DNA from: Halichondria panicea
Taxonomy: Eukaryota > Porifera > Demospongiae > Suberitida > Halichondriidae
Assembly (NCBI RefSeq): GCF_963675165.1
Contig: NC_087377.1
Location: forward strand, 3,812,978 to 3,876,977
DNA length: 64,000 nt
Direction of reading: 5' to 3'
Shown here: piece after piece, positions 7,516-53,200 of the stretch
Position numbering within the stretch: position 1 is the stretch's first letter
Layout: each line of letters begins with the position of its first letter
Notes under the pieces: generated by a model
Databases searched by the model: none
The model's input: the letters and a program-made list of their open reading frames with translations, nothing else
What the model was told of the DNA's origin: nothing
Position numbers and translations under genes: made by a program

Positions 7516-10500
7516 CTACTGTCCATTACAAGTGTTCACATGTTTCCTATACTTCTGAATCTCCCCCACTCTAAAGTTACGCCTACATAGAGGACAGATT
7601 AGGTTCGGGTCAAACGGAGCATCGGGTGCCATCGATTCCAACTCATCCCCTTCATGGATAAGAAACTTGGCAGCGTCTTTGATGTCTTGGTCTATGCCTT
7701 GAAGCAAAGTGTGTTCATTCGCTACTTGTTTGGGCCGTTGTGTCTTTGGTTTAGAGTTTTTTCGTGGTCGGGGTATTGGTTGAAATTTTAAAGCTGGTTG
7801 ACCTGTAAGGGTTGACTGACCCCTTCCAGTGAGTGGAGGGATTTCTTGATGAGAATTCTTTAGCTCTTGACCACTTTCAGGTTGACCACTTTCAGGTTGG
7901 CTCTCCCTCTGCAGTAAAGTGAAAATAAGTGTAGTGGAGGCCATACAAATATACTCAAATGACACTAAGGTGACAGCCAATTAATACAGACAGCATGTTA
8001 CTGAGACTATACACTGCATGGACAATGAATGAATTAACAATCAATACATGCATGACAGGGTGTCATACAGGATTTTGAAGTAGATGGGGAAATAAGAATT
8101 TAAGTAACCAAAACATTTTGCTAAAAAAAAGGTCAACTATTATTTCAATACACTGTTATATAAAATTGCCAGCTATGGACAAATTTTAGGGGGGAGGAAT
8201 TGGAGCTAGAGGGGGATATCCCCCTTTCCCCCTGTATATGACACTCTGTATGAGAACACTCACCATATAAACAGGAGAGACTGGTTGTCGGTGTTGCGGG
8301 GACTCCAGTCGACTGTTGATGGACTGATGTGGTAGCACTGGGATCTATATATACAGTAATCACAGACATAACGCTCGCATTAGCTTGCTCAATCTGTATA
8401 ACCAACAACATAGATGTTAACACGCCGAGGCAATCAACAATGTGCAATATGTAACTACATCGATTCTACTGTGATGCACTAGCATGTAATAGGGGGTGTG
8501 GTCAAACATTTTGACGCGTGCCCAAACATTTAATCCTAGATGAAACCCTGCATACATACGTACATTGAACTGTTGAACGTTATGAAGTAAGACTGACATC
8601 CGAAATGCAAAATGTCCCATACATTGATTAATGGGGCAAACAACAATAATACCTTGTCAATGCTGAAAAGAGGAATTGCTATCGAGTGCTGTGCGAGTGT
8701 TCCCTTCAGCTTCTCAATGGCTTGGTAGCAGGTCTGTACAGGAATAAGAAAATTACGATCACAGCATGCAGTGGTAGACTAATGTACATGCATGTAGTAC
8801 ATGTGCATGTACACGTATGTATCTAAGGTAAAACTCCTCGACACAAATTTACACAAGAAACGTACGTTGCATTTGTCCATTAGCTCACTGCATTTTGATT
8901 CGGCTGCTAGTAGTTTTTGTTCCACCTCTATTCGTCTGTCAACCTCGATCATCACAGCCTTGGGAATTTCCCCACCGTATCTAAGTTCCTGTAGTTCTCT
9001 TTCAAACGCTTCAACTCGTCTTTGAGATTGGATTAAATCCGTACTAGCAGCAAGCTTATCGCTCTCTGCAGTTGCTTTGGCTTGCTCAATCTATGTAACC
9101 AAAAACACATGTGTATTGCTCTAAAATCATGGCTCAAAAATATGAAATCAGTTTGTGTACAACGTTCATTTAACACTGTTACAGTAGAACCTCGATCCAA
9201 ACACCTTGGTGTGCAGGCCGGATAACTGCATGAATATGCCGGATAATCGAATAGATAAACCACGCCTTCATCCACCAACTTTATTGATAAACAGCAGTGC
9301 CACATGGTTGTCTGTGCATGCGCAGAAGATAAGCATGCCTGTCTCCATAGTAATAGCTACAACGCGCGCATGTGCATTTAAGGGATACGCCATTTTCTGA
9401 ATTATTCATTAAAAAGAAAATTGCCAAGCCGGATAATCGAGGTTCTACTATAATACTGTTGTTAAACGTTGATACATGTACAGCGTACTTATAATACCCT
9501 TGATTGCATATGAAGCACACATACATGTAAATAATGCACACCTACATGCAGTGTTAGAAATAATTTTTATTGACTGTATATGGTCAAATGTCATTCCTGG
9601 TCATACTGACCGGACACATGCAGGAATGCATGGTCATTCTAATTAAACGTCCAGTCAATTATGACCGCGATAGCAGTGAGAAATTTCTAACACTGACATG
9701 TACAGTGTATAGATGATTACTGTTACATGCAGTAGTAAATTTACCTGATACTGATTGTCCTCTTCCATGGTTTTAATGAGCTCAAGGCGTCGCTGCAGCT
9801 CCTGCTGTGTCTTCAATAGTTTAGTATTGGCCTCCTCCACTTTGGCTTTGAAACTGTCCGTCTGTTTCTTGTACTGCTTCACTTGAGCCGTCTTTGCCAT
9901 GACCTCATCGTGAAGCTTTGCTGAGTCAGCGAGGGACACTTCCAGCCTCTGGCGAGCATCTTGTAGTTTGGCTATCACAGCTTGTTTTTCTCGTTTCTCT
10001 GTCTCAGCTTCTGCCATATATTTTCTGAGTTGATCAGACAGAGCATCGTTTGTACCAAAAGTTTGTTCTCGAGCAGCACGTTCTTCTTCAAAGTCTTGTT
10101 GGTACTGAAATGCCTGCATTTACAGTTGAGCCTCGGTTATCCGAACACCTTTGTCCCCGGGCCCATTTGGATAAGTGAAATATTCGGATAATCAAAACAT
10201 GCCAGCTGGCTTCTTTTTGCCAGCCACGTGGGCAATTTCCTACTGCGCATGCTCAGATTGCACTATGCTCTAGCATTCGGATAATCGAGGATTCGGATAA
10301 CCGGGATTCGGATAACCGAGGCTCAACTGTAGTAGAAATGTTAGTAGAAATTGCCTAGACTTAGCAGTAGTACAACGATTATAAGGCTGGTTTCTATAAA
10401 CTCTGACGGACTTGTAATTATAATTTAATGACAACCATACATTTATATTTACATTGAGTGCCCTCCCCCCTCACAGTATGAAGGTACTATATGTACATGT

Positions 10501-13500
10501 ACCTCCCCGGATGCATTTGTCTTTTAAAGAAAACTATAAGACATCTAAAATTGTGGGAAACACAAAATGTATACACCCACTTGGATCACATTGTGTGAAG
10601 ATCAATTCTTCAGTATCCAATTAGATTCACTAAAACTACATGACTGCATTCGACTGCATTTGAAACCAGGGGTCTCAATTGTATTCCCCAAGGGCCAGGG
10701 CACAGCCTAGTCGGGCGCCGCCGCCCTCTACCGTTGCCCGGAAGGAGGTCGGGAATCAAGCCTATATATCCACAGTTTTGTTTTGTTGGTGGAATTCCAC
10801 CAGATTGCAGTATATCAAGTGGATTGATCACACCCACTCAACTTTACCACGTGTGATTTTTCACACATGGGATTGACTGAGAGGCGTGACCAACACCCAC
10901 CGTTATTCGCTAGCACCCACACATAATGAATGATTTCATGATACTATTGCGTAACAGGCCAGAACAAAACTGTGGATAGGCTTGATTCCCGACCTCGGCA
11001 CCTGACTAGGCACAGCCGAGGGAATAGAGGTTAGTACAAACAATACACACAGCAGATGTCCACCACATACAGATACATGATGCACTATGAACACCTACAT
11101 ATATATAGAAGCTGTTAATCTAACCCATTTACAACTGAGTACCAGTATTAGTAAACACTCTTTGATCCCTGCTGTGCATTTTCACTGTGCATGTTTTGTG
11201 TGCTTGTGCGTGCTTGCACTTGATAAACATAAAACTGCCCTCACACCCTTGATATTCAGGGTACAAACATGTACATAATTATAATTTATGTGTTGCTTTA
11301 CAAAATAGGCATGTGCACAGTTCCTTTAAAAAATTAATTACTGTACAAGTCATGTGCTATAGCTATAGAGCACTGAAGTGCTACCCTCGGCTGTTGATAT
11401 GAATAAATCTATAAAAATCAGCGAAGTGTTCAGAATATTAATAAAGATGCAATTCTACTTTTAGTAGCCAAAACATCATATCCGGCTGTACATTGAAAAC
11501 CTAGTTCTGGGCAGCCATCACTGGCCAGTATACGGGATATAGCGAGTGGCTGTACTTCAGGGTGAGTTTTGTGCAGTAAACATCTAGCTAGCAATCGTGT
11601 AGCAAACTAAATGGCCGGTATATCGAGGTGGTCGTACTTCAGAGGGCTGGAATAGCGAGAGTCTATTGTATACCCGTGGCCGCCCACGCACGCCTCGGGT
11701 AATTATGCACAAGCAAATAAATAAAGGACTTACTTTCTCCAACTGTCCTTTGTAGCTGTGTTTAGAAGCACGCAACTCGACACTTTGTAGAGCCAAAACA
11801 TCACGTTCTTCATTGGAATCTCTCAATCTTCTCTTCAGTGATAGATTCGCTTTACCAAGCTCAGTGATTCTGTTGTTGAGTCTCTCCACTCTTTTCTCAT
11901 GTTCTTTAAGTTCAATCTGTGGAGCAATTGACATAATTATACATTTCTAATTAGCAAGAATGTACATTTACGGGGGAACATACAGAGTGCATGTACATGC
12001 AGTATAATGATTATTATGTTACAACATAATTATAACATGGTCTGTAGATCGAGTACAATGCATGCATGCATGTACATGAGAGGTCAATACACAATGTAAC
12101 AACAAGACTTCAATTATTAATGGACTCATCAATAACGAACTCATCATACTTTAAACAGATTCACTTCAGCCGTGAGTAGCTGTATCTCTTGTGGATCTTC
12201 TTCTGCTCCCATTTGAACAGTTGACTTATCTTTAAGAGATGATACAATACTTTGGGACCTTGCAAGGTCTCTCTATAGGGATCCAGTGATAAAACAACGA
12301 TGATCAAATGCTAACTGCCATTGAATTAGCCAATATTTTTACAGACACATGCATGAGTATTATACATGTATACTATAATAAGTCAGGAGCTACAGCATGG
12401 CATAAACAATATACATGCATGCATGTATACCTTCACAGAATTATGGTTTGTTTGCTCAGCCTCAAACTCCAGCTTTAGAAGATTCAAGTCATCTTCAACC
12501 CCTGTCTTCTCTTTCTGAAAATCAGCAATGGTATATAAAACACACATTAATTAGTGTATACATAATTATGTTATAGTTATAACACGGGCACGAGGGATGT
12601 ATGGAATATATTGCACTGAAGCACGAGGGTGTAAGCCCCGAGGGCTGAGTGCAATATATTCCATACATCCCGAGTGCACGTGTTATAACTAATTTATATC
12701 CTGAGGGCATAGCAACATAACACTGGCTTAGTAACACAATATGAACAGCACAAAAAAATGACAAAGACAACTCTAGACACAGCTCCATCTCTTCTCTCTT
12801 CTAGACGCCAGTATATGCAGCGTATAAGATTGGCATGACCGACGAATGGCTTGATACAAAATTGTTGGAGTTCCAACGCTGAAACCACTGCAAAACAGCC
12901 CCACCCCACTACTGCTGCAAAGAAACAGCCGCACCCTACTTACTACTGCTGTGAAGAAACAGCCCCACCCCACTACTCAGTGTAACTGCTGCTTGAACAG
13001 CCCTCCACTATCCTCGGCATCACAATCAAGCCAAAGAAGCTCGCCTCTACACTGCTGCAAAACAGCTCAAGCCCCCAGCAAAAAGAGCCGCTTCTAGTGC
13101 TATGGTGAAGCAGAATTGACATGCATCATGAATTAAGTCGAGGACTAGGTCTAGGAACACAGAATCTTCCACAAAATGAGCCTTGGACAATTTTAAAACC
13201 TGCATGGTTGCAAAGAAGAAACTCCAGCAGTGTTGAACATGCATTCCTGCATGGCTGGACTTACTTTGATACTTGTTATTTCTCATGATACAATTTAATT
13301 GTCTGTCTAATGCCAGAGGGGCGTTTTGTGGTTAGTGCATTATTAGTGCATTGACTTTCAGCAGTGCATTATGCTGCATAATTATTGCACTTGGCAACAA
13401 TAACGTAGCAAGGGGATATAAATATATATATAGTTACAGTGCAATGTACCCTGAGGTCTCTAAGCTCTTCATTGCACATGACTATCGCCTGATGGAGCTC

Positions 13501-14752
13501 TCTAATTTTTCTTGCAACTTCTGACATGTCCCTGACTACTCGAAGTTCCTCCTGAGTCAGAAAATAGAATATAATAGTGGGTATTATGTGGAAATTTTCT
13601 TAAATATTAGCGTATATAGTGGGTAACATAAAACCTCAAGCATAGGAATGAGGTGCAAGTTCAGCAGCAAGATTGTGACAGTATAAGTATCGTTTATCTC
13701 TTCAATTGTCTCCAGCCTAGATTTTCTTTGAAGATAGCTTCGAGTAAAACCGGGGCAACACGGATGGTATTTGAGGTCAATTCCGTTGCCAATCCTTTAT
13801 CTATTACGGTGGGCAGCCTTCTCCAAAAAATCATGTGGCTATATACGCCTCGAGGCATGCATAAATATAAAACGCGCTTACATTTTGCAGAGCGGTCTCT
13901 AAAACAAATCGTTATTACCGGAAATTTATACACAAACAGATTTGTTTTTGTGGTCTAGCTCATACGAAACTACACGTATTATTACAGTCCTGTATGTCGT
14001 GAATACAGCAAAAATTAAGGACCTTAAAAAATAATTATCATGTGTACCTGAGCTGCCGCAAGCTCCTTCTTGAGTTGTACCACAACAGTGTTCTGTATTT
14101 TACTGTGTTCTTGTAACTGCTGTCGCTGAGACGCCACTTGTTGGAACGTTTGTAACTGAATACTAAGGGACTGAATTTCTTTATCCTTTGTTCTGAGAGC
14201 CGCTTTCATTTCTGCAATGGATGTGGACTCCTCATCTTCATCAGCATCATCGACACTAGAAGTAGGGGGAAGGCTAACTCTGGAGCAGTTGCTACATCGT
14301 GGTGCTTTCAACTGGCAATCTTTCTCGTGGACTTTATCTGTTAGCTCACTCATTTTTCTGTCAAATCGATGTTTCATCTGATCCTTTTCTGTTCGATTTT
14401 CTTGTTTCAAATCGGCAATTTCTGTAACCTTTTCAAGGTATTTGTCTCTAATATGTTGCAGTATTTTGGCACCATCACCTTCATCACCAGCTTGAATACC
14501 GTCGGCAGAGGGTGGAGCTTGCTCATTAGTAATTTTAATGACTTCTTGGAGGTCCTTAATTGATGCAGATATTTTGTTTAGCCTCTGAGTGAGGTCCTCC
14601 ACCTGGGCTTGAAGGTTTATGGCCTCTCTTTGAAGATATTCCGCTTCTTGGCGATGAGTTAGAGCATCTTTTTCAGCTTTTCTAGTCAGCTCCTCCAGCT
14701 CAACACGAAGTTTCTCAGCATCTGTCCTGTTGTCCTTTTGATCAACTAGCTC
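7516..14752 (-). CDS. NEMO/optineurin-like coiled coil with UBAN motif and C2HC zinc finger (10 exons)
   Basis: Exons in transcript order: 14752-14048, 13551-13450, 12514-12431, 12272-12150, 11916-11734, 10113-9745, 9090-8866, 8733-8653, 8344-8264, 7908-7516. All are phase 0 with GT-AG borders, giving 781 residues up to the stop. Residues 1-600 are mostly Glu/Lys/Gln/Leu-rich coiled coil. Residues 406-416 read DFEEERAAREQ, matching the DFxxERxxRE signature of the UBAN ubiquitin-binding coil of NEMO, optineurin and ABIN proteins. The C-terminus has C756, C759, H774 and C778 (CX2C-X14-HX3C), like the zinc finger that ends NEMO and optineurin. By family it would bind linear or Lys63 polyubiquitin in NF-kB or autophagy signalling. 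No ATG fits its first exon. The upstream kinase exon A ends in phase 0 and can splice straight onto it, giving a kinase-UBAN fusion. Confidence 0.85.
8056..8248. mobile_element. MITE, CAGGGTGTCATAC termini
   Basis: The left end CAGGGTGTCATACAG mirrors the right end GTATATGACACTCTG, about 193 bp apart. It lies in an intron, 16 bp from coding exon 8264-8344. A second family member is at 14976-15153. Confidence 0.6.
9182..9450. mobile_element. pogo/Tigger-like MITE
   Basis: Ends CAGTAGAACCTCGAT and, on the other strand, TAGTAGAACCTCGATTATCC, flanked by TA on both sides (9180-9181, 9451-9452). The terminal sequence and TA target fit pogo/Tigger-type elements. The interior is non-coding. Confidence 0.7.
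9549..9695. mobile_element. MITE with CAGTGTTAGAAAT termini
   Basis: 147 bp with ends CAGTGTTAGAAATAATTTTT and CAGTGTTAGAAATTTCTCAC (minus strand). The CAGTG start is hAT-like, but no clean 8-bp target duplication was found; only ACATG is shared. Confidence 0.6.
10123..10329. mobile_element. pogo/Tigger-like MITE beside the UBAN exon
   Basis: Ends CAGTTGAGCCTCGGTTATCC in both orientations with TA duplicated outside (10121-10122, 10330-10331). It ends only a few bases before the 3' splice site of exon 10113-9745, so it now supplies that intron's branch-point region. Confidence 0.75.
10580..11275. repeat. Dispersed repeat R2, copy 1
   Basis: TTCAGTATCCAATTAGATTC, a CCCATTTACAACTGAGTA motif and a segment rich in GTGCTTGCACTTG recur in copies 2 (24776-25290) and 3 (34262-34560). 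This copy is split by an insertion that holds an internal inverted repeat around GATTCCCGACCT. It lies within an intron. Confidence 0.55.
12567..13425. repeat. Long dispersed repeat R1, copy 1 (about 860 bp)
   Basis: Closely similar, in the same orientation, to 46628-47497, from TTATGTTATAGTTATAACAC through a TGCAATATATTCCATAC palindrome and AAACAGCCCCACCCCAC blocks to GGATATAAAT. The open frames across it are fragmentary, so it is probably non-autonomous. This copy lies in an intron of the UBAN gene. Confidence 0.75.
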
Positions 14753-14975
14753 CTGTAAGAATGGTAATATACATGGTTTACATACACGTACAGTAATATC
14801 TAGAATGTTCTTTCACAGAAAAACCATTTGTAAATGCGATCTAACTTTTGTGCACTCTGGCAAGAATCATGATGCCATAAAAGTACTGGTATATAGGTGC
14901 GTGCAATGAGAAGTTATCAAAACTTGCAAAACCGCATAGCTTTGATGCTCGCTAAAAATTCTAGTACTCAATACA

Positions 14976-15153
14976 CAGGGTGTCATACGGGGGGAGAAAG
15001 GAGGGATACCCCCCCCCCCTTTCAAGTACTATAGTTGTATGACTGAGTGTCCATAGCTGAGTATTTAAATAACAGTTTACCTTTTTTTAGCAACATTTTC
15101 TGGTTACTTCTCTCATTTCCCCCCTCTACTTCAAAATCCTGTACGACACCCTG
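14976..15153. mobile_element. MITE, CAGGGTGTCATAC termini (second copy)
   Basis: CAGGGTGTCATACGG at the left mirrors CTGTACGACACCCTG at the right, about 178 bp. Same family as 8056-8248. Confidence 0.6.
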
Positions 15154-15355
15154 ATATAGTACACATGTACACCAATAAGCATACTCCTTTAACAACGAGT
15201 GGTGCATGCAAGCTGCCAGCTAGTGCTAAAGCTTCTCGCCATGTTTTGCAAAGAGACTTTACATGGTTGACAATGAACCCCCACAGTAAGGGTTTCATTT
15301 AGTGGGGGGAAGGGGGCAGGAGTGAACTTTCCCCCTCCCAAAATATTAATAATGA

Positions 15356-15445
15356 CATCATTACATTAGTATAAATACTAATGTAATGATGCACATGTGC
15401 AATATGTAGACTCGCAAGCCGTCACTGTTGTACGGCAAACAGTAG
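15356..15445. repeat. AT palindrome plus half of a hairpin element
   Basis: 15356-15391 is a near-perfect palindrome with 17-bp arms (CATCATTACATTAGTAT). From 15407 the sequence TAGACTCGCAAGCCGTCACT matches one arm of the hairpin element at 21760-21812, but the second arm is degraded. Confidence 0.6.
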
Positions 15446-16881
15446 ACTGCATGGTCAACTCCAACGTTTGCCACAATAATTATTTGTGGCCATTTAAATT
15501 ACTAGACCGCATGCGGTTACCACAATAATCATTGATAGTGACGTAGCACTAGAAAACTCATCTAAGTATCACCATAGCTAGATCGAAGAAGGAAAGGGAT
15601 TAGAAACATATCACATGATGCTCTATCAATTGTACGTGTGATGTCATAACATGATTTTAGAGGCTAGTTGCGCTTGTTGAGCTACTGGAAACTCGCCCAC
15701 TGTCTGAAGCATTGAGTTTTATGGGAAATTTGGGTATATTCAACACCCCTGGGGTTATGCTGAGCCATACCAAACTACCTATACAGACTCTTAGCTACTG
15801 AGTTATACAAGGAGTTTTCTCTTGGATTTCAGCTATATTGTAAGTTTTGTTCCTACATCATCACCCCTGGTTTGTGTAATAGGTTGTATTTAGTATGAGG
15901 AGAAAGCCTATATGGTGCATGTATAGAATGGGAATAGCTACTTTGTAGATTTTTCCTAGGTACTTTGGCAAACATAAGTAAAAACGGAACAGCATGTTTC
16001 CGTTCCTCTTACCTTATCCAGCGATGAGCAATAGGCACTATAGTTTTACAGTATCATGCGTTATTACCAGTAGAATGGGAATAGAACATTTACATTTTTT
16101 TTATGAAGGCTCAATCACTTGTTTTAGTATAATACAATTGTGGTTTATACATAATTATTGTGGCATTTGTTATACCCATATAAGTACTGTATTACAGTGA
16201 AGAGAGTATACTCTTGATACAGTCCATTGCTAGTAAATACTATCAGCAGTTCAAACACAGGACATGGGGAACCTAAAGAGGGAGTATGAAATGCTATAGA
16301 CAAAGATAGAAGTAGTGTCCTTTCAAGTCAAGACCAATGAGAAACAAATGTTCTGTAGAGGAGTAGATCTATAGATAGGAATTTACCAGCATGCACGTGC
16401 TAAGTAAGCATTGTTCAATGTCACAATGACGGATTGTTGTATAATTATAGTGATCATGATTGGTGTCTTCTTTTATGGTGTGTTTATTGTTTATCATAGC
16501 TCTAGAAGACTCCCAGAAGCTTTCAGGGAGTCTGGACCATCTTTCTGGCAGTCAACTTTTTCTAATACAAACTTGATAGAACTATCCGTTGCCGCTTCTT
16601 GTATAGATTGTGTTATTACCTTTGTTTGTTCTTAGAAGTTTTCATGTGAACCAGGTTAAATTATGGTGTTATTAGGTTATGGCATTTCCTATCACATGCC
16701 GCAGTTATACAATAGGATTTCTACTGCGTTTCCAATCCTTTTATCTATGGTATCACGTGTAGTAGACTGACGTCACAAAACCACAGCCACTTAGAATCTT
16801 ATCTGATATGCTGACTATGCAACACAAGATCCTACATGAATAGCTCATAATGTGTCACGCGTACCCAACATACGAACTTAC
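15446..16881. other. Putative long intron, no coding exon seen
   Basis: Lies between kinase exon A and the first coiled-coil exon. AT-rich, with short open frames of no recognisable family. The stretch 16715-16760 resembles the end of the 7-bp-TSD MITE family (TTTCCAATCCTTTTATCTAT). Confidence 0.45.
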
Positions 16882-17790
16882 CTCTTCGAGGATGGATGCA
16901 ACATCCCCTGGGGACTTTGGGTGCTTTGTACTGAGCTGATTGAGAGTCTTGTTCAGGTCAGCTGTTGAGGGTCGAAGCTTCGGCTCATCTTGCAGACAGT
17001 TGATAGCAAGTTCGTAGAGAGGGTGACTTTTCTTCATTTGTTCTTCAAGGACATACTTTCTCTCAGCAATCTCCATTTTACCAGGCTCCACTTTGCGAAA
17101 ATTGGTGACTCGAAAAATTTTTGGCCAACTTTGAATCGAGGTGTGGAGTACAAGATGTCCAAATGAGAAAATGTCCATACTTGTATTATACTGAGGATCC
17201 TTGATTTTGGTTTCTGGAGCCATGTAGGATAAATTTCCAGGGGCCATTGTTTGCTTGATAATATGCGGGTCAGTGAGAAACTTCGATACTCCCAAATCAG
17301 CAATTTTGGCTCGACAATCTTCAGTCAGGAGAATATTCGGTGCTGTCAGATCACGATGTATGAGAGGTGGAGTTTGATTGTGGAGGTACAGTAGACCGTA
17401 AGAAATGTCAAGCAAAGTAGATACCTTGATTGATATCGGGATGTTTTTACGTTTTTCAACGAATGTAGCAAGATCACTCTTCAATCGCTCCATAACAAGC
17501 ATCAGATCGCTCTTGGATTTTCCATAACACACCCCCACAAAATGTACGATATTGGGGTGGGACAACTTGCTCAAAAGGACACACTCATTGTAAAATTTCC
17601 CCTGTATACATTTTCGATCATCAGCAGATACTTCTTTGTTGGTCAGGATTCGGTGTAGCTTCTTAGCCATGCAAGGCAAGCCAGCAACACTCACTTTGAA
17701 GACAAATCCATAAGCTCCAGAGTCAAGATCATCCACATCTTTATCTCCTTCTTCAAGACCTTGAACATCTTGCAGCAAGTGCGCTTTTAG
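16882..17790 (-). CDS. TKL-type protein kinase exon A
   Basis: 909 nt, 303 codons. The donor GAG|GTAAGT is strong. The acceptor at CTCAAG is weak, so the 5' boundary is uncertain. Numbering from that boundary: glycine loop SGAYGFVF (24-31), ATP lysine K43 in CMAKK, then HPNIVHFVGV, HRDLTAPNILL, ADLG in place of DFG, YMAPE and a complete C-lobe. DLG is common in TKL kinases, so activity is plausible. It is nearly identical to copy C but lacks the roughly 25 bp that hold copy C's ATG. An in-frame stop lies at about 17886-17888, and no ATG is available between. A must therefore be an internal exon or a promoterless copy. Its phase-0 donor matches the phase-0 acceptor at 14752, giving kinase plus UBAN coil plus zinc finger. 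Confidence 0.8.
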
Positions 17791-18864: not shown

Positions 18865-19773
18865 TGAGTTCCTTTGCATTTCAATAGTATCCACGAATGG
18901 CTTCGGGAACTGCTTTGCAAACTGAATCAGAGTTGAGTTGAGCTCTTGAGATAATGGTCGTCTTTGAGGCTCGTCTTGAAGACAACGGCAGATTAGTTGT
19001 CTCATTAGATCTTCTGGAGATAGTTTGCCAATCCATTTCATTCGCTTTTGTATCTGAACTTCCTTCCGTTGAATACCAGTGGCTGTCACTAGATTCTCAT
19101 AGTGCATAAATTGTGGATACTCTTGTAGAAGAACATAAAGAATTAGTACACCAAAAGAGAAGACGTCCAAAGCATAGCCATATTTCGGATTCTCAGTCAG
19201 TGCCTCAGGGGGCATATATCCGAGTGCGCCGGGACCCCTTATCTGTTTAGAGGTAGGGTGGGCATCAATGATTTGTGAAACAGCAAGGTCAGCAATTTTA
19301 GCATGGAAGCTAGTAGTGAGGAGAGTGGTGTGAGCTGCCAGATCACAGTGAACAATACCCCGAGAATGAAGGTGTAGCATGCCTTGGGAGATGTCCAGAA
19401 GAATCGATACTTTTAACCACATTTCAATATTTTTATATTGCTCCAGGCAGATCTCGAGATTCATGTACAGACGCTCTATAACTAGTGTGAGCTCTCTCCC
19501 GTAATCTCTCTGTGGCCCATAGTGCACACCCATAAACTGGACAATGTTGGGGTGACGCATTCGACTCAGTAACACACACTCAGAATAGAACTTCTGGTAG
19601 AAAGCTCGTCTGTCTTCTTTATTCTCTATCAAGTTGACATGAGATTGCTTAGCAATGCAATTCATCCCATTCAAATGGATGTGGTAGAGAGATCCGTACG
19701 ACCCAGCGCCATGTTGCTCACCGAGCTCAGGGAGATGTGGTAGGATGTAGGGAGTCAGCTCATCAGAGCTTGT
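18865..19773 (-). CDS. Predicted TKL pseudokinase exon B
   Basis: 909 nt, phase 0 at both ends (acceptor TTTCACATACAG, donor TCA|GTGAGT), 303 codons with no ATG at its start. The glycine loop GAGSYGSLY and ATP lysine (CIAKQ) are intact. The catalytic loop reads HCDLAAHTTLL, so the HRD arginine is Cys and the metal-binding Asn is Thr. The DFG motif reads DLA, losing its glycine, and APE is PPE. The fold looks complete: HPNIVQFMGV, DVFSFGVLILYVL and a C-lobe ending with RRPLSQELN. It differs strongly from A and C and so is an older relative. Loss of the Asn and the DFG glycine points to a catalytically dead, possibly scaffolding, domain. Phase symmetry lets it sit as a cassette between C and A in one transcript, or splice directly to the UBAN coil. 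Confidence 0.8.
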
Positions 19774-20341
19774 CTGTATGTGAAATAAGGAAACTGCACA
19801 GTCAGTATAATATATTTGAAAAGACTATAGGCATGTATAATAATTATATGTATACGTATGTATATATGATGTCCAACCAGATTGGTGTATGTGTCAGGAT
19901 AAAGGTCAAATTGACATAATCTCGGTCCCGTACGTGTTCATGAATACATGCAGTTAATTAGCTAAAACTATGTTGATTAGTGTAACTGTATGTATTTTAC
20001 AAAATAATTGCAATGGGAAAGTTGCTATAATTGGTGGGGGGAAACACCAAAAAGCGCAGAAACAAGAAATCCGGCGAGAGCATAACTCCAATTTCTAGAA
20101 TCTTTTCCTCCTTGTACAAGGATCATCATGAAATTTTGCAACCATGCACTTTCCAAACAACTATACAATTAACTTGGACCATGGGCATTTTTCTCAGATT
20201 TGCGATTGGTTTCACGAGGCACATGACCTCTCAAACCCAGGCAAATGCTGTTACTATCAGTTCAACACTCTAATATCTACTCAACCTATACCATAAAAGG
20301 TGCATGTGAGTGTCACGCGTATACCCAACATATGAACTTAC

Positions 20342-21615
20342 CTCTTCGAGGATGGATGCAACATCCCCTGGGGACTTTGGGTGCTTCGTACTGAGCTGAT
20401 TGAGAGTCTTGTTCAGGTAAGCTGTTGAGGGTCGAAGCTTCGGCTCATCTTGCAGACAGTTGATCGCAAGTTGGTAGAGAGGGTGACTCTTAGTCATTTG
20501 TTCTTCAAGGACATCTTTTCTCTCAGCAATCTCCATTTTACCAGGCTCCACTTTACGAAAATTGGTGACTCGAAACGTTTCTGGCCAACTTTGAATCGAG
20601 GTGTGGAGTACAAGATGACCAAATGAGAAAATGTCCATACTTGTATTATACTGAGGATTCTTGATTTTGGTTTCCGGAGCCATGTAGGATAAATTTCCAG
20701 GGGCCATTGTTTGCTTGATAATATGAGGGTCAGTGAGAAACTTCGATACTCCCAAATCAGCAATTTTGGCTCGACAATCTTCAGTCAGGAGAATATTCGG
20801 TGCTGTCAGATCACGATGTATAAGAGGTGGAGTTTGATTGTGGAGGTACAGTAGACCGTAAGAAATGTCGAGCAAAATGGATACCTTGATTGATATCGGG
20901 ATGTTTTTACGTTTCTCAACGAACGTAGCAAGATCACTTTTCAATCGCTCCATAACAAGCATCAGATCACTCTTGGATTTTCCATAACACACACCCACAA
21001 AATGTACGATATTGGTTTCCGGAGCCATGTAGGATAAATTTCCAGGGGCCATTGTTTGCTTGATAATATGAGGGTCAGTGAGAAACTTCGATACTCCCAA
21101 ATCAGCAATTTTGGCTCGACAATCTTCAGTCAGGAGAATATTCGGTGCTGTCAGATCACGATGTATAAGAGGTGGAGTTTGATTGTGGAGGTACAGTAGA
21201 CCGTAAGAAATGTCGAGCAAAATGGATACCTTGATTGATATCGGGATGTTTTTACGTTTCTCAACGAACTAGCAAGATCACTTTTCAATCGCTCCATAAC
21301 AAGCATCAGATCACTCTTGGATTTTCCATAACACACACCCACAAAATGTACGATATTGGGGTGGGACAACTTGCTCAAAAGGACACACTCATCGTAAAAT
21401 TTCCCCTGTATACATTTTCGATCATCAGCAGATACTTCTTTGTTGGTCAGGATTCGGTGTAGCTTCTTAGCCATGCAAGGCAAGCCAGCAACGCTTACTT
21501 TGAAGACAAATCCATATGCTCCAGAGTCAAGATCATCCACATCTTTATCTCCTTCTTCAAGACCTTGAACATCTTGCAGCAAGTGCGCTTTTAGCTCGTC
21601 CAACTTTTCAGCCAT
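20342..21615 (-). CDS. TKL-type kinase exon C with start codon; broken by tandem duplication and frameshift
   Basis: The ATG at 21615 begins MAEKLDELKAHLLQDVQG, preceded by a possible acceptor (TTGTTTGCAG). The glycine loop, CMAKK lysine, HRDLTAPN, ADLG and C-lobe follow as in A, and the phase-0 donor GAG|GTAAGT is at 20342. Two lesions interrupt it. A 345-bp segment, from NIVHFVGV through YMAPE, is repeated in tandem (20671-21015 and 21016-21359). The upstream copy also lacks one base near 21269-21270, which shifts the frame after KSDLA. Without the extra unit the kinase would match A almost exactly. Either this is a recent pseudogenising event, a haplotype or assembly error, or a true exon needing reassembly. 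Being the only copy with an ATG, it is the best candidate first exon for a C-B-A-UBAN gene. Confidence 0.75.
20671..21359. repeat. 345-bp near-perfect tandem duplication
   Basis: Units 20671-21015 and 21016-21359 are essentially identical apart from one deleted base in the second. The unit length is divisible by three. It lies inside kinase exon C and is absent from kinase A. Confidence 0.9.
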
Positions 21616-21759
21616 GTTTCTGCAAACAATTACAAGCCCCTCCCCTTTTTGGATTATGCTTTGCCTCGATTCCAAGTCCTTTGGAGCGGCCTGGGATCGA
21701 AGCTTCCTATTAGAAGGCCAAGGAGCCACAAAAAGTGAGCCACCCCAGGCCCACAAATC

Positions 21760-23015: not shown

Positions 23016-23314
23016 TTTCAGTAGTGCTGAACAAAAATGAATAAAGAACTGAGTATACTAGTAAGGAATAGAGCACACTGCCAGTCTTTGACTTCTTAAA
23101 AGTCTAGCTAAATGATGAACACTAGAGATTTATAGGCTGGGTACTTAGAAGCTGGAGAAGAGGAGTTTTAGCATGGTTTTAGTTGCTGCTGGAGGTTAAC
23201 GCCCACTGCCTATTGCACTCTGAACCGTAACACGGATGGTTTCAAGAGGCAACGTTGGAGTCATTGTCGCACGTGATCCCGTTTCCAATCTATTAACTAT
23301 GTACTCAATCTATG
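21997..23314. mobile_element. 1318-bp MITE-like element with ATTGAAC target duplication
   Basis: Ends CATAGATTAAGG and CTCAATCTATG, flanked by ATTGAAC at 21990-21996 and 23315-23321. Removing it rejoins the right arm to match the uninterrupted left arm. Same family as 29764-30295, 32356-33043 and 35938-36460. It contains a (TTA)n microsatellite at about 22979-23011 and no recognisable transposase. Confidence 0.8.
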
Positions 23315-23605
23315 ATTGAACACTGTTTGTGTTTACCGGTACATGTACATGCATGTGTGCCTTTGATATTGAGAGGGAGAGGATTTACTGTAATCAATTT
23401 TGTGAGGTCTCGGTTTTATTATAGTAAAATAATTGCTATTGGCCATCCATTGGTGTTCTGGTATCCATTGAATTTCCTCAAAAGAGGGGGTTGTAGTCAT
23501 CTTAGCTTGTTTGCAAACACGGCTGAAAAGTTGGACGAGCTGAAAGCGTACTTGCTGCAAGATGTTCAAAGCCTCGAAGAAAATTATTGTAGATCTACCT
23601 GAAAG
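23315..23605. repeat. Right arm of inverted duplication, second part
   Basis: Reverse match to about 17958-18183, including AGATCTACAATAATTTT and GGTTTTATTATAGTAAAATAA. It carries a second copy of the kinase N-terminal fragment. Confidence 0.8.
23519..23583 (+). pseudogene. Second fragment of kinase N-terminus
   Basis: TAEKLDELKAYLLQDVQSLEE, again with ACG in place of ATG, on the strand opposite to the kinases. It runs into unrelated sequence and a stop soon after. Confidence 0.75.
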
Positions 23606-27191: not shown

Positions 27192-30100
27192 ATGTACAAG
27201 CTTATTGCATGTGTAGTGATTCTGTCTGCACTGATACAAGAGTCAGTACAAGATGGCAACTGTCCAGTCTGTGGAGCACCCACTGCTGAGGCTTCAATTA
27301 CAAACACCTTTGCCGGCAGCTTCAGTAACACCAGACGGAGAAGACAAGCCGCTATAAATCCAGAGCCTGGTATGTGCATGAGGTCTATTTCACTACATAT
27401 ATATATACACGTGTTTTCGGTGTCAGAGAATTGTGCTTGTGATGTTATCATACGTACTTATAGTGTCATGTTCATATTATAGAGAATCAGAAGATTCATC
27501 ATTTTATTCACTTAGGTATACATGCATGTGAGTATACGTACATTGACTACTAGTACTATAGTGAAACCAGGAGCCCATAAATAACAGAAGGAGCGGCTGA
27601 CTACGGGATCACGTTTCGTAAGTGGTTATGACCGCATTTCCATATACTGTATAGCGGGTGTATTTCGAGGGCATAAGGTTTTCGCGGATTAAGCATGTAC
27701 CGCGAACATTTATAACCGCGAATTTAATATTGCATGCATGCATGCATGCTGCAAAAAGGCTGCTAATCCACGAAAATTAAATCTGCGAAAACCTTTCTAA
27801 AGGCATTTCTTTGAAAATGTATACCCTCAAAATATACCCGCTATACGGTATGCAGAGTCACTAAGTGGTTGAATCCCTACACGTGTTATACGCAATACAT
27901 GACTGCGGTTTGCAAGCACTTAGTCGCTTCCATAAAAGGAAGTGTGGTTTCACCAGCAATACAAAATATGATTCTCGAGCCCCTCCTTCTCTTATTTATG
28001 GGCTCCTGGTGAACCAGTGGAAATATCTTAGCAAGTTTGTGCTTTGTTCTATAGATCAGAGGAAGTCCGACAGGTGCGGTGCAGCTCAAGTAATTAGCCT
28101 TTGATTACTCTCAGCAAAATCATACGACGTGGGTCGGGCGTGGGCGGATAATTATTGCTCAATCAATGGCTAATTGCTTGAGCTGCACCGCGCCTGTCGT
28201 ACCTCCTCTGGTTCTATAGATATAGTGATAACTGTCACACGTTATTTCAGGGGGCAATTAATTGATGTGCGACGTGCTACAGTCATTGTTTTTTAGTAGC
28301 CTTAATTAAATCAATTTAAACTTGAGATCTTTTCTACAGATTCCAATGCTCCTACAACACGAGGTAATGAGTTTGCCCTTGCATTTATGAGACATGCTGT
28401 TGAACAAGCTGAAATAACGCTGTATATTACGACTGAACAAAATGTGTCTAATTTCACTATTGAAACGAAGTTTTCAGGTCTAATAGGATTCAACGAGACA
28501 TCATCTGACAGTGGATTGTACTCTCATACTGGCACAGCTCAGAGGGGAGAGTTTACTTTCATTCAATTGCAAGCTATTGATGGACTGCCAGGCCTATCAG
28601 TACAGAGTGACGGTAATAATACTGCAAGTGATAGACAAAAGGGACTGATCTTAACTGCAGATAATCCAAAGCATGAGCTCACAGTATATGCTCTATACAG
28701 CAGTGATGGTATTAGCAGTGATTTTGGTTCCTCCACTGATACCTTCATGGCTATTAACTGTGTTAATTTTCCAACGGCGAGAAATTATCAGTATTTCATA
28801 TTCACAGTATATATTAATGGTGGTGGTGGTAGTAGCCAGTTTCTCATGACACCCTGTCAAGATAATACAACTATTCGTGTTAGACCATCACAACCATACA
28901 CTCATCCCTCCTGGGTAAATTCAAGCGTGCAGCGTACAACTCCGGGTACCTTGTCTGAGGAAGAAGCAATCTATGGACGACGTTTCAATCGCTTTGATAC
29001 TCTCTTGTTTAGCAATGATGGTGATTTAACCGGGACCATAATTACATCTGACAAGCCATTGTCTGTTTTCAGTGGCTACAGCGACTTTTCGTTTTTTCTC
29101 GTGGAGCAAATTCCACCACACCCAACATACGGCAATTTATTCTTTCTCTCATCAATTTTTAACAGAGTGATATTTCAAATAGGCTCTGTCAGTGATGAAG
29201 CCTCCATACAAGTCAACTGTCCATGTAGGCCAAACTCTGTGAGTAATAGTAGATTGCGCATATCCCTCACAGGTTCTGGGAGATTTTTTACTGCTGTTAT
29301 GAATCAAGGCCAATACGTTGAATGTTCGTTATTTAGCAATCCAACAACAGCTTGCAGTATCCAGTCGATACGTCCAGTTACGGTTATGAGTTACCAATTG
29401 ATTAACTCTTTCTCGATGGTGTATATACCACCTGTTGATTCTTATCTGACTCAGTATAGTCTCACAAGTCTGGGTGATTCTTCTGTATCCCTGAGCTACT
29501 CTCTCCAGGATCTAAACTTTCCGGGATTACTAGTCAATGGAAGTATATTCCCACCGTCCGATGGTTTCACTACCATCGACTGTAGGTCGGACTGTTCTAA
29601 GTCAATAGTGTGTGGGCGGGGAGCTACTGGTCGCTTAGGCCGCCAAGGAACCTTTGATATACAATTTTCTGGTGATGTACCATTCTGGGGGTTTGCAGGT
29701 TCTGCTGGAGAATTTACTTACTCTCTACCATTTGAGATGAGACCAATAGGATGTAAGTTCAAACATAGATAGAGTAGAAGAGGGATTGGAAACGGAAGTA
29801 CCCTCGAAGTACCATCCGTGTATCTCCGCGGTTTTAATCGAGGCTTACTTTTTAACACGAGGGCTAAACATGAATAATTCATGAGAATTGTTTTTGCTCT
29901 CTGTAAGAAGTCCACGAGCAGTTCTGCTGCTAAACATCAATTTTCTCTAATACTTGAGGCCATTTGGGACACAGGACACTATTTAGTTACAAAGCCTTAG
30001 CTATATCAAAGGTACTATAGGAACACAAGCATGAAAAAGCGCTGTGTACCTCTAGCTACTTCACGACAATCGAGATTATATTTTCTTTGTTTCCAATTGA

Positions 30101-49130: not shown

Positions 49131-49700
49131 TTACAGGTATGTCAGGTGTATGTGTAGAAGTGATAGTCCAGTTAGTCGTTCTGTTGTCATAGATGATCGC
49201 ACTGCCGTCTTAATTCTTTTTAGACCACTGAAAGACCTCTCTGCTGAGCAGCTAGTGACAGGCAGAGTGCACAATATACTAACCAAGGCTCTGATATTGG
49301 GGAACATGGTCGTGGCGTGCTTGAGAGTAACAGTAGGACTTCGTGGAAGGCTACTATCTCCATGGTCCTTACAGTATTGCTCCCACTTCATCTGCCAGCA
49401 GTGTAGCTCACTCTCGATACAGGTTGGTGATGGGAGATCATCCTTGTACAGGTCAACTAGTTGGCTGACTTTGGAGCTGTAATCTTCTGCCGAGAGGCCC
49501 ACCATAATTGATGGAACTATGGAGAGACCTTGTAGAGCTGTTTTCTGATGGGCGCTGAAGCGAGATTTCATCTCTGTGAGCAGATGGTCGAGTACCAGGA
49601 TCGATATCGAACGACAGTAGAACTGTGATGGAGTATCAGCAGGAACATTGCTTCGATGGATTTGTCGACCACATCTCCTCGGTTCTCATCAAAGCTCTTA
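49131..49700 (-). pseudogene. hAT-family transposase remnant (C-terminal dimerisation region)
   Basis: The frame reads ...RCGRQIHRSNVPADTPSQFY..LDHLLTEMKSRFSAHQKTAL, then MFPNIRALVSILCTLPVTSC and SAERSFSGLKRIKTAVRSSM, the signature of the hAT C-terminal dimerisation domain (ZMYM/52-kDa-repressor-like group). Upstream the frame meets stops (about 49680-49700) and no N-terminal zinc finger or catalytic core is found. It is a truncated copy. The plus-strand open frame over it is a shadow. Confidence 0.85.
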
Positions 49701-50241: not shown

Positions 50242-53200
50242 ATGTACAAGCTTATTGCATGTGCCCTGATTGTGTCTGCACTGATACAAGAGTCAATACA
50301 AGATGGCAACTGTCTAGCCTGTGGAGCACCCACTGCTGAAGCTTCAATTACAAGCACATTTGCCGGCAGCAGCTTCAGTAAAACCAGACGGAGAAGACAA
50401 GTTGCTATAAACTCAGAGCAGCCTGGTATGTGCATTCTATAAGTACATGCAATGCATTTGTTTTCGGTTTCAGAGAATTGTGCTTGTGATACTTCGCATT
50501 ATAATTATATACCTATATAGTGTCATATTCGTATATAATGCATGTGAGGTACATGCATGACTACTTGTTGATATAGTGCTAGTGAAACAGTGGTAGTCTT
50601 TAGTCTTTAGTTGCTTCTAAGGTCACGGTATTGCAATGCAAGTTTTTTTGTGCTTTGTTCTCGATATAATAAGTAGTTCTGATGTTAACTGTCACCCACA
50701 AAGGGGCAATTAATTGAAGTGATAATGTGCTGCATGATGTTCCTCACGTATTACGCATTAGTTATACTGCCCAGCACGAGTGCAACATGCCATATATTGC
50801 ATGTTGCGTGAGGGCGCCTGCAATAACTAAATTGTTGCCCAATGACGTCAAACTCTTCTGATTGGTCAAGTTTTTCTCTAATAAAAGACATTTGTTGCCT
50901 TTTGACTTCTGAGATCAAAGGAATAGCAGTGCCAATAATGGCATATTGCACTGTGGTCAGTCTGTAATATGCATGGCATTCAGAAAATTGACCTTTCAGT
51001 GAAGTCTCCCACCTAAACTGTCAAATCATTGCTTTTATAGTGCACACTGAATGAGACACTTATGGTTCCTGTGGTATACCAGACAGCATATAAAATTATG
51101 CATGGTTTCGATGCAGTTACTATTTACAGAACAAAAACGACCAAATGTCTTTGTATCTACGCTATGATTCTATGCAGATTTCTATATGCAGAAAATGGTT
51201 TCCAAGGCAGTTATTACATGGCAATTCGTGCCACAAGCTGTTTATTGGCCCAGTAGTAGACTGTGGTCAAGCACCTTTAGCCATGTAAGAACTATTACGT
51301 GTTTTGAGTAAATTTTAGTGGATTCATGAATTCCATAGTAAATTCTTAGGTTTTGTTCCCACAACTAATTAATGAGTATTGGGTGGGAGGGTGGCGTATA
51401 AGTCCCAAAAGTAGCTACTGTATTTACACACAGTGCAAGTGCATATAATCCCAGTGCATTATGCAGTGCAATATATGGTTGCTATGGTAGTGATACAACA
51501 TGCTATATACTTGCTTCGATCTGCCCACTCACTAGGCAACAAATGCAGTTAGCATAGTAGCCTTAGCCTGTTGTATATAATTATAGGTCAAAAAAGATAC
51601 AACACTTGAAAAAGGGCAAATTTAGACAATGTTCATGGACCAACTAATGTTTATATAGGGACCAACTATATAATTGCCCTCAGGTTATATCTATACGTTG
51701 TTCCCATTATGTGGTCAATAATGTGTCTAATTACTGTGGAGGTGAAACACTTCCAAGAAATGTGTACAATTAACCTATAATAGGTTCAACAGTATATGGT
51801 ACATGTCAAGGCCGTAGCAAGCGGTCAGGCTGGTCAGGTTTTGGCCTGATCACTTTTTATAGCCGAATGGTCGTCATTTGAAGACCTTTTTTATGTAAAT
51901 TGCACCGCTGTATGCGAAAGTTCTAAGACAAAAAAACTGGTTGATCTTTAAGTGTAAGTTGGCCTGCATGCATGACCGAATTAAACTTGTTTACTACTCC
52001 CTGCATGTCATGTAGTAATTGATATCTCTATTTTCTACAGATTCCAATGCTCCTACAACACGAGGCAATGAATTTGCTCTTGCATTTATTGCTTTTGAAG
52101 GAGCTGAAATTACGCTACATATTATGACCCAACAAAATGTGTCTAATTTCACTATTGAAACAAAGTTTTCTGGCCTACTTGGATTCAACGAGACATCACC
52201 TGATAGTGGATTGTACTCTCGTACTGGCACAGCTCGGAGGGGAGAGTTTACTGTCATTCAATTGCAAGCTATTGATGGACTGCCAGGCCTATCAGTAGAG
52301 AGTGACGGTAATAATACTGCAAGTGATAGACAAAAGGGACTGATCTTAACTGCAGATAATCCAAAGCATGAGCTCACAGTATATGCTCTAATCAGCAGTG
52401 ATGGTATTAGCAGACATTTTGGTTTCTCCACTGATACCTTCATGGCTATTAACTGTGTTAATTTTCCAACGGCGAGAAATTATCAGTATTTTATATTCTC
52501 ATTATATATTAATGGTGGTGGTGGTGGTAGTAGCCAGTTTCTCATGACACCCTGTCAAGATAATACAACTATTCGTGTTAGACCATCTCAACCATACACT
52601 CATCCCTCCTGGGTAAATTCAAGCGTGCAGCGTACAACTCCGGGTACCTTGTCTGAGGAAGAAGCAATCTATGAACGACGTTTCGATCGCTTTGATACTC
52701 TCTTGTTTAGCAATGATGGTGATTTAACCGGGACCATAATTACATCTGACAAGCCATTGTCTGTTTTCAGTGGCTACAGCGACTTTTCGTTTTTTCTCGT
52801 GGAGCAAATTCCACCACACCCAACATACGGCAATTTATTCTTTCTCTCAGCAATTAACTCATTGTTACTTCGAATAGGCTCTGTCAGTGATGAAGTCTCT
52901 ATACAAGTCAACTGCCCATGTGAGCTAGGTGACTCTGTGAGTAATAATAGATTGCCCCTTTCAGGTTCTGGGAGATTTTTCACTGCTGTCATAAACCGAG
53001 GTCAATATATCGAATGTTCTTGTTTGTACTTAGGAGACACAATATTTTGCAGCGTCCAGTCGTCACGTTCGGTTACAGTTATGAATTACCAACTGGAAAG
53101 AATATTCTCGATGGTATATATACCACCTGTTGATTCTTATCTGACTCGGTACAGTCTCACAAGTCTGAGTAATATTCCTGTGTCCTTGAGCTACACTCTC

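Follow-up and report, generated by a model that had tools for sequence, protein, structure and literature searches.

A putative TKL kinase-UBAN chimera in the sponge Halichondria panicea and related gene models elsewhere in its genome

Introduction

Can one animal protein combine a reader of polyubiquitin with a kinase? Known animals divide these roles between a reader (NEMO, optineurin) and a separate kinase (IKK, TBK1), and it is still debated how the binding of chains turns the kinase on. The question is raised by a stretch of 64,000 nucleotides of the sponge Halichondria panicea (contig NC_087377.1, here C1, positions 3812978-3876977), to which we refer as the window. On its minus strand a TKL kinase exon, KA, stands upstream of ten exons, E1 to E10, that encode a coiled coil with a UBAN motif and a terminal zinc finger. 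A preliminary description of this DNA had proposed that KA and the ten exons form a single polypeptide of about 1080 residues.

In order to evaluate this proposal we compared the window with the rest of the genome (131 Mb in 39 contigs). Positions are those of the window unless a contig or a locus elsewhere is named. The explanation that we favor, with a probability of roughly two in three, is that the window gene is a recent chimera of a kinase-first gene, of the type found at the locus G2, and a coiled-coil/UBAN/finger gene, of the type found at the locus R4b. KA would be expected to splice to E1 and a normal kinase would not be expected from this copy, while the architecture would be genuine elsewhere in the genome.

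Exon structure and domains of the window gene

The gene model consists of the following exons, all on the minus strand, with the basis of each assignment in brackets.

16882-17790: KA, TKL kinase domain exon (sequence, Pfam and PDB matches)
14048-14752: E1, coiled coil, 235 amino acids (four paralogous places in the genome)
13450-13551: E2, coiled coil (exon model, paralogue comparison)
12431-12514: E3, coiled coil (exon model, paralogue comparison)
12150-12272: E4, coiled coil (exon model, paralogue comparison)
11734-11916: E5, coiled coil 5' of UBAN (in frame, 47 amino acids shorter than in R4b)
9745-10104: E6, UBAN motif YQQDFEEERAARE (about 10104-10066), then coil (in frame, 169 amino acids shorter than in R4b)
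8866-9090: E7, coiled coil (exon model, paralogue comparison)
8653-8733: E8 (exon model, paralogue comparison)
8264-8344: E9, corrected exon of 81 nt, phase 0, IPVLPHQSINSRLESPQHRQPVSPVYM (paralogue comparison)
7516-7908: E10, linker and C-x2-C-x14-H-x3-C finger, with the stop at 7516 (sequence)

The frame of KA is open from 17886 to 16882. The strong phase-0 donor that had been reported for the upstream kinase is indeed there, GAG/GTAAGT at 16882, and the 3' end of the exon reads CTCGAAGAG/GTAAGT. Pfam PF07714 matches KA with an E-value of 9e-37. The catalytic Lys (AKK) and HRD are seen, and DLG stands in place of DFG. The best solved relative in a PDB search is TNNI3K (E 1.9e-25), a TKL kinase with ankyrin repeats. 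The six distinct PDB sequences matched at E up to 1e-20 belong to TNNI3K, TYK2, CTR1 and roco4, with neither IKK nor TBK1 among them.

The ten exons of the coiled-coil gene extend from 14752 down to a stop at 7516 and are all in phase 0. E1 is preceded by TTCTTACAG and does not begin with an ATG; Met first occurs at residue 126. The preliminary description was right about the ten phase-0 exons and the missing ATG, and wrong about the ninth exon: 8393-8264 (130 nt) breaks the frame, and a paralogue points to 8344-8264. With E9 so corrected, the lengths of all ten exons are divisible by three. The KA domain (303 amino acids) and E1 to E10 (778 amino acids) together give about 1081 residues, in agreement with the proposed length. 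The predicted motif DFEEERAAREQ is located in E6, and the CX2C-X14-HX3C finger is present in E10 as described.

The nearest relative of the coiled-coil exons is R4b (C1 5156747-5168858), to which E1 is 85% identical (tblastn). Comparison of E1 to E8 with R4b gave a ratio of nonsynonymous to synonymous substitution rates (dN/dS) of 0.47 over 610 codons (Fisher p 9e-5, dS 0.138), which indicates that these exons evolve under constraint. The window gene shows three large losses relative to R4b, in E5, E6 and E10, all of them in frame.

In order to characterize the UBAN motif we read 19 UBAN exons of the same genome (that of the window and 18 others) and aligned 13 of them, the window included. 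Y, D, F, E, R and R are invariant in all 13 rows and the last E is kept in at least 90%. When the 13-exon profile was searched against PDB, the 20 best of 29 matches (E up to 1) were NEMO, ABIN1, ABIN2 and optineurin, with E-values of 7.8e-10 to 1.4e-6; the next match had an E-value of 0.0065. The UBAN identity predicted for the window motif is thus confirmed by profile comparison. At E up to 10, 38 matches to the Pfam profile CC2-LZ were obtained genome-wide, of which 29 start at profile position 46 or later, in the UBAN part. C1 holds all but one of the 29, chiefly at 3.13-3.23 and 4.86-5.18 Mb, and the E-value exceeds 0.05 for four of them.

A hybrid intron between KA and E1

The interval between KA and E1 is composed of parts with different relatives (minus strand throughout).

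14753-16881: hybrid KA-E1 intron (comparison with R4b and with K3, a sister copy of KA)
16881-16852: K3-like intron start (comparison with K3)
16851-16837: filler of 15 nt between the K3-like and R4b-like parts
16836-16743 and about 15570-15406: two halves of a repeat resembling a miniature inverted-repeat transposable element (MITE), parted by a 1.17-kb insertion
16743-15570: the 1.17-kb insertion inside the MITE-like repeat, with inverted ends (CCATAG...), flanked by GATAC
15406-15168 and 14858-14753: parts resembling the R4b intron upstream of E1 (comparison with R4b)

R4b starts with exons of its own, Xa (MLKKKNSSQQ...) and Xb (394 amino acids), ahead of E1; at R4b and at two further loci, R2 and R3, Xb ends in a phase-0 donor, GAT/GTAAGT. 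Neither Xa nor Xb has a match anywhere in the window, and the Xa matches in the genome are three good ones (with R2, R3 and R4b) and a weak one (after the locus R1). Similarity between KA and K3 spans 17929 to 16852, and from 16836 the window intron tracks the Xb-E1 intron of R4b at 5159739. The 94% match of 16836-16750 to the R4b intron cannot serve as proof of a unique shared intron because this stretch is part of the MITE-like repeat with inverted ends, which has at least 39 copies in the genome (best 40 of 155 candidates). However, R4b carries the repeat at the same site, including its left end (5159683 on), which the window copy lacks. R4b is also the only full match of 15571-15168 among the best 40 of 278 candidates, and the similarity of 14858-14600 to R4b runs on into E1. 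The argument for a hybrid intron therefore rests on the shared repeat site and on the stretches 15406-15168 and 14858-14753, which follow R4b.

Because the KA-E1 intron joins the start of KA's own intron to an R4b-type Xb-E1 intron, the join in the window is best read as a recent exon shuffle. This comparison indicates that the kinase exon and the start of its intron took the place of Xa and Xb ahead of E1, the exchange having occurred between introns of the same phase. In terms of the two parents, a G2-type kinase-first gene would have lost its 3' part and an R4b-type gene its first exons, and the two would have been joined within same-phase introns with the breakpoint inside the MITE-like repeat. 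KA would therefore be a coding exon upstream of E1 and should splice to it; we consider such splicing likely. KA and K3 differ with a dN/dS of 0.20 (p 2e-7) and a dS of 0.123, the first compared piece taking in a few K3 codons past a frameshift, which raises dN. Since the dS values of the two comparisons (0.138 and 0.123) are similar, both duplications appear to be of like age.

Predicted kinase-UBAN genes elsewhere in the genome

The most complete relative is G2 (C1:5184245-5178505, minus strand), where six exons read from ATG to stop as a protein of 865 amino acids, with all introns GT-AG and phases consistent; its kinase exon ends at 5183337 and its UBAN exon starts at 5182001. The order is TKL kinase, coil, UBAN AQMYRDDFQSERKDRE, coil, Pro-rich linker and C2HC finger; the protein matches Pkinase at 8.9e-34 and CC2-LZ at 0.0029, the latter under the cut-off. 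The reverse order is found at S2 (C1:3226221-3227997, plus strand), where a UBAN exon, three exons of 14-21 codons and a kinase exon lie within 1.8 kb, all in phase 0. The S2 model spans the UBAN exon, which ends at 3226631, to the kinase exon, which starts at 3227059, and the N-terminus and the last exon are outside it. At R1 a coil and a kinase occupy one open frame of 464 residues with a degenerate UBAN motif; they are joined under either reading because the probable intron between them is in frame. Since G2, with its complete frame, and S2 also encode a kinase with UBAN, this architecture is not an accident of the window locus. The genome appears to have genes that join a TKL kinase and a UBAN coiled coil in one protein, with exon models at G2 and S2 and a single frame at R1; the preliminary description was thus correct as to the type of protein.

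Other loci are less complete. At G1 the kinase exon continues into a coil and is followed, about 1 kb further downstream, by a finger of the same kind, with no UBAN motif seen. In G3 the open reading frames have the order kinase then coil, the kinase is interrupted by an intron and UBAN is not clearly recognizable. At R2a, R2b, R3, R4a and S3, UBAN and kinase are known by order alone, and the R4a kinase contains one stop. In a kinase tree of 12 rows, KA, K3, G2 and G3 form one clade (100/100), with the C-terminal kinases outside it and G1 on a long branch; a split of all N-terminal from all C-terminal kinases was unsupported (51/0).

Additionally, we tabulated the neighbors of the 29 UBAN exons of C1 (28 CC2-LZ matches and one more) against 24 finger hits and the kinase hits of the contig. 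The kinase hits are 134 matches from the best 130 of 748 candidates, so that unscored kinases are missing from the counts, and the tabulated features are orders and not gene models. The next same-strand feature within 12 kb was a finger in 16 cases, a kinase in 7 and neither in 6. A kinase upstream (within 6 kb on the plus strand, 8 kb on the minus strand) together with a finger downstream was found for 3 of the 29, namely the window, G2 and 4927865; the upstream kinase of the last, reading to a stop, probably belongs to the preceding gene. UBAN-finger genes without a nearby kinase hit also occur, three of them in tandem at C1 4.996-5.009 Mb.

Exons for UBAN, finger and TKL kinase are densely clustered at C1 4.86-5.19 Mb and 3.13-3.23 Mb. 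Contigs C10 and C17 hold many clustered TKL kinases about 47-51% identical to KA, and the sole match to the UBAN part there is C10:4219775.

Alternative explanations for the window locus

The observations that weigh against the chimera are taken up here together with the explanations that they would favor. Assembled KA has no start codon: K3 keeps the ATG segment, and KA, its sister copy, has lost it. The first in-frame Met of KA is residue 73 of the open reading frame, past the glycine loop, and a scan of 20400-17800 for an ATG exon with a GTRAG donor upstream of KA gave only frames of the neighboring kinase K2. The N-lobe would not be fully translated from KA, which has no start codon 5' of the glycine loop; the G2 counterpart has one. 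Because the start codon is gone, an intact protein of 1080 residues from the window copy is doubtful, although the hybrid intron backs the join; for the same reason a normal kinase is not expected. Translation would either depend on a further exon upstream that has escaped notice or begin downstream of the glycine loop, and the kinase half of this copy is probably no longer fully translated. The neighboring kinases are on the minus strand as well.

20342-21629: K3, sister copy of KA with ATG, frameshift and internal duplication (sequence comparison)
18865-19824: K2, degenerate kinase of C-terminal type (HCD, DLA), with a possible last exon near 18310-18262

We considered whether K2 is spliced into KA as a double kinase and judged this improbable: the phase-0 donor of K2 is common to sister genes, but in these a short last exon appears to follow, and a possible counterpart lies near 18310-18262. 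K2 probably ends before KA. More fragments resembling the 5' region of KA and K3 lie at 18056-18000 (minus strand, with ACG at the position of the K3 ATG) and 23314-23596 (plus strand), a sign of repeated local duplication.

Because K3 is frameshifted and K2 is degenerate, the kinase side of the locus looks to be decaying. It is possible, if somewhat short of an even chance, that the whole window locus is a decaying array. In that case KA would be a pseudo-exon without a start, the coiled-coil exons would be a copy truncated at its 5' end, and the locus would make no functional fusion; the real fusions would be those at G2 and S2. The replaced start codon of KA, the frameshift and duplication of K3, the HCD and DLA of K2, the missing Xa and Xb and the large losses in E5, E6 and E10 would all fit. 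However, all ten coiled-coil exons keep their frame and splice sites, the three losses included, and dN/dS is below 1 both for E1 to E8 and for KA against K3, ratios that reflect the past of both copies and not just the time after the join.

The KA-E1 splice is predicted from genomic sequence. AATAAA at 16488, within the intron, could terminate KA on its own, and the paralogues own separate first exons. Both facts would suit a separate coiled-coil/UBAN/finger gene whose first exon would be new, short and located between KA and E1, KA being spliced elsewhere or polyadenylated in the intron. We regard this as unlikely: a scan of 16881-14753, confined to coding first exons with a GTRAG donor, gave no exon that starts with ATG. 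In addition, the first exons of the paralogues have no match in the window, and the first Met of E1 comes as late as residue 126.

The junction sits in the many-copy repeat, which makes a misassembly conceivable; the true E1 gene would then have Xa and Xb, and the true KA its own downstream exons. Such an error is very improbable. In an assembly of so few contigs short repeats were probably spanned by reads, the three Xa copies and the weak match are all placed at other loci, and the KA/K3 duplication is local.

The remaining points concern the profiles and the gene models. The window coiled coil alone matches CC2-LZ at 2.5e-4 with 21.9 bits, below the curated cut-off of 35.3. Not one of the 38 matches in the genome reaches this cut-off, and the joined proteins of the window and of G2 also stay below it. 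CC2-LZ gave no match to the joined S2 protein at E up to 0.1, and at E up to 10 it also matches 2 of the 14 control genomes, with scores below the cut-off. Among the six UBAN exons left out of the alignment, R1 reads DFEDERAANE, with N for the second R, and the last E is lost in R2b (..RVQ), R3 and R4a (..RAQ) and 3138388 (..RAS); the motif is imperfect across copies, since these rows deviate. The joins at G2 and S2 are exon models from genomic sequence, not cDNA, and the fourth donor of G2, GTTAAT, is weak.

The C-terminal finger

The finger of the window gene is of the form C-x2-C-x14-H-x3-C, with Cys as the fourth ligand. It had been described as NEMO-like, which is not supported: a profile search up to E 10 retrieved neither NEMO nor optineurin chains, and Pfam gave only zf-C2HC_2 (E 0.24). 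A single-sequence structure model has a mean predicted local distance difference test (pLDDT) score of 70, and about 90 over the finger. The first ten Foldseek rows for this model were UBZ fingers of NDP52 and TAX1BP1, with a best E-value of 0.92 and none at or below 0.001. The best VIA row was NDP52 (Z 3.6, root-mean-square deviation 1.1 over 33 residues), and C2H2 fingers of the ordinary kind followed at Z 2.4 and 2.3. NEMO and optineurin fingers were not in these fold-search lists, an absence that still allows for them. We therefore do not treat a NEMO-type finger as an established identity, given the empty profile search and the first place of UBZ in the fold search. The model weakly suggests that the finger is closer to UBZ than to the NEMO finger, and a second ubiquitin contact through it is a fair guess.

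Relation to known systems and possible function

The nearest solved kinase, TNNI3K, has no UBAN. NDP52 and TAX1BP1 resemble the window gene through the UBZ fingers that head its fold matches, although weakly, and differ in that the fourth ligand of the window finger is Cys. The likeness to NEMO consists of a long coiled coil, the UBAN motif DFxxERxxRE, matched by profile, and a C-terminal finger. However, NEMO itself lacks a kinase domain and uses its N-terminus to bind IKK, whereas the window gene would have the kinase in the chain, and there is no sequence match between the two fingers. Optineurin, ABIN1 and ABIN2 share UBAN (profile E 7.5e-9 to 7.2e-8), and the kinase-less UBAN-finger genes of this genome have the same layout.

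According to PMC11854354, the UBAN of NEMO acts as a dimer in binding linear and K63 chains and is impaired by mutations at the disease residues D311, E315 and R319; the counterparts of these residues (numbering of that source) are kept in the window and in G2. The same paper describes TBK1 as bound by optineurin as a separate protein, another difference from the window gene. Kinase domains fused to sensors are known from GPCR-TKL/K of choanoflagellates and GPCR-TK of choanoflagellates and sponges (PMC12716839); these are membrane receptors (GPCR, G protein-coupled receptor), not ubiquitin readers. We found no UBAN-kinase fusion protein among the papers listed in our literature searches, which cover few subscription journals, and to that extent the order kinase-coil-UBAN-coil-finger, as it can be read in the G2 model, is undescribed.

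If these proteins are made, the coiled coil would dimerize and UBAN would bind linear or K63 polyubiquitin, with the finger perhaps adding a second ubiquitin contact. Chain binding may then gather the attached TKL kinases, which would phosphorylate each other as well as their targets; this would amount to a one-component version of NEMO with IKK, or of optineurin with TBK1. If this is true, a natural single chain of reader and kinase would make the question of chain activation testable in one purified protein. It would also suggest that the lineage of this animal evolved its own connection between ubiquitin sensing and kinases, and did so in many copies.

More tentatively, and with rather more doubt than confidence, the loci could represent a family of one-component kinases activated by ubiquitin, clustered in the genome and turning over fast. 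The 29 or so UBAN exons of C1 would have interchangeable outputs (an N-terminal kinase, a C-terminal kinase or a finger only), swapped by shuffling through phase-0 introns, and the family would be an animal parallel to receptor clusters that diversify rapidly. The window would be one such swap with a readable breakpoint, and could serve as a base-level example of exon shuffling creating a new domain order. The window copy itself is a young and reshuffled member of the family, and probably a damaged one.

Other features of the window

A Death-domain gene lies at 472-1927 on the plus strand (PF00531, 5.5e-6, on part of the 1106-1927 open reading frame) and is a possible signaling neighbor of the UBAN gene. 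An open reading frame at 49131-49685 on the minus strand has what we take to be a resemblance to the hAT transposase C-terminus (SAERSFSGLKRIK). Two similar large exons on the plus strand, at 28306-29772 and 52019-53716, carry the IgGFc-binding domain PF17517 (1e-21 and 2.7e-21, respectively).

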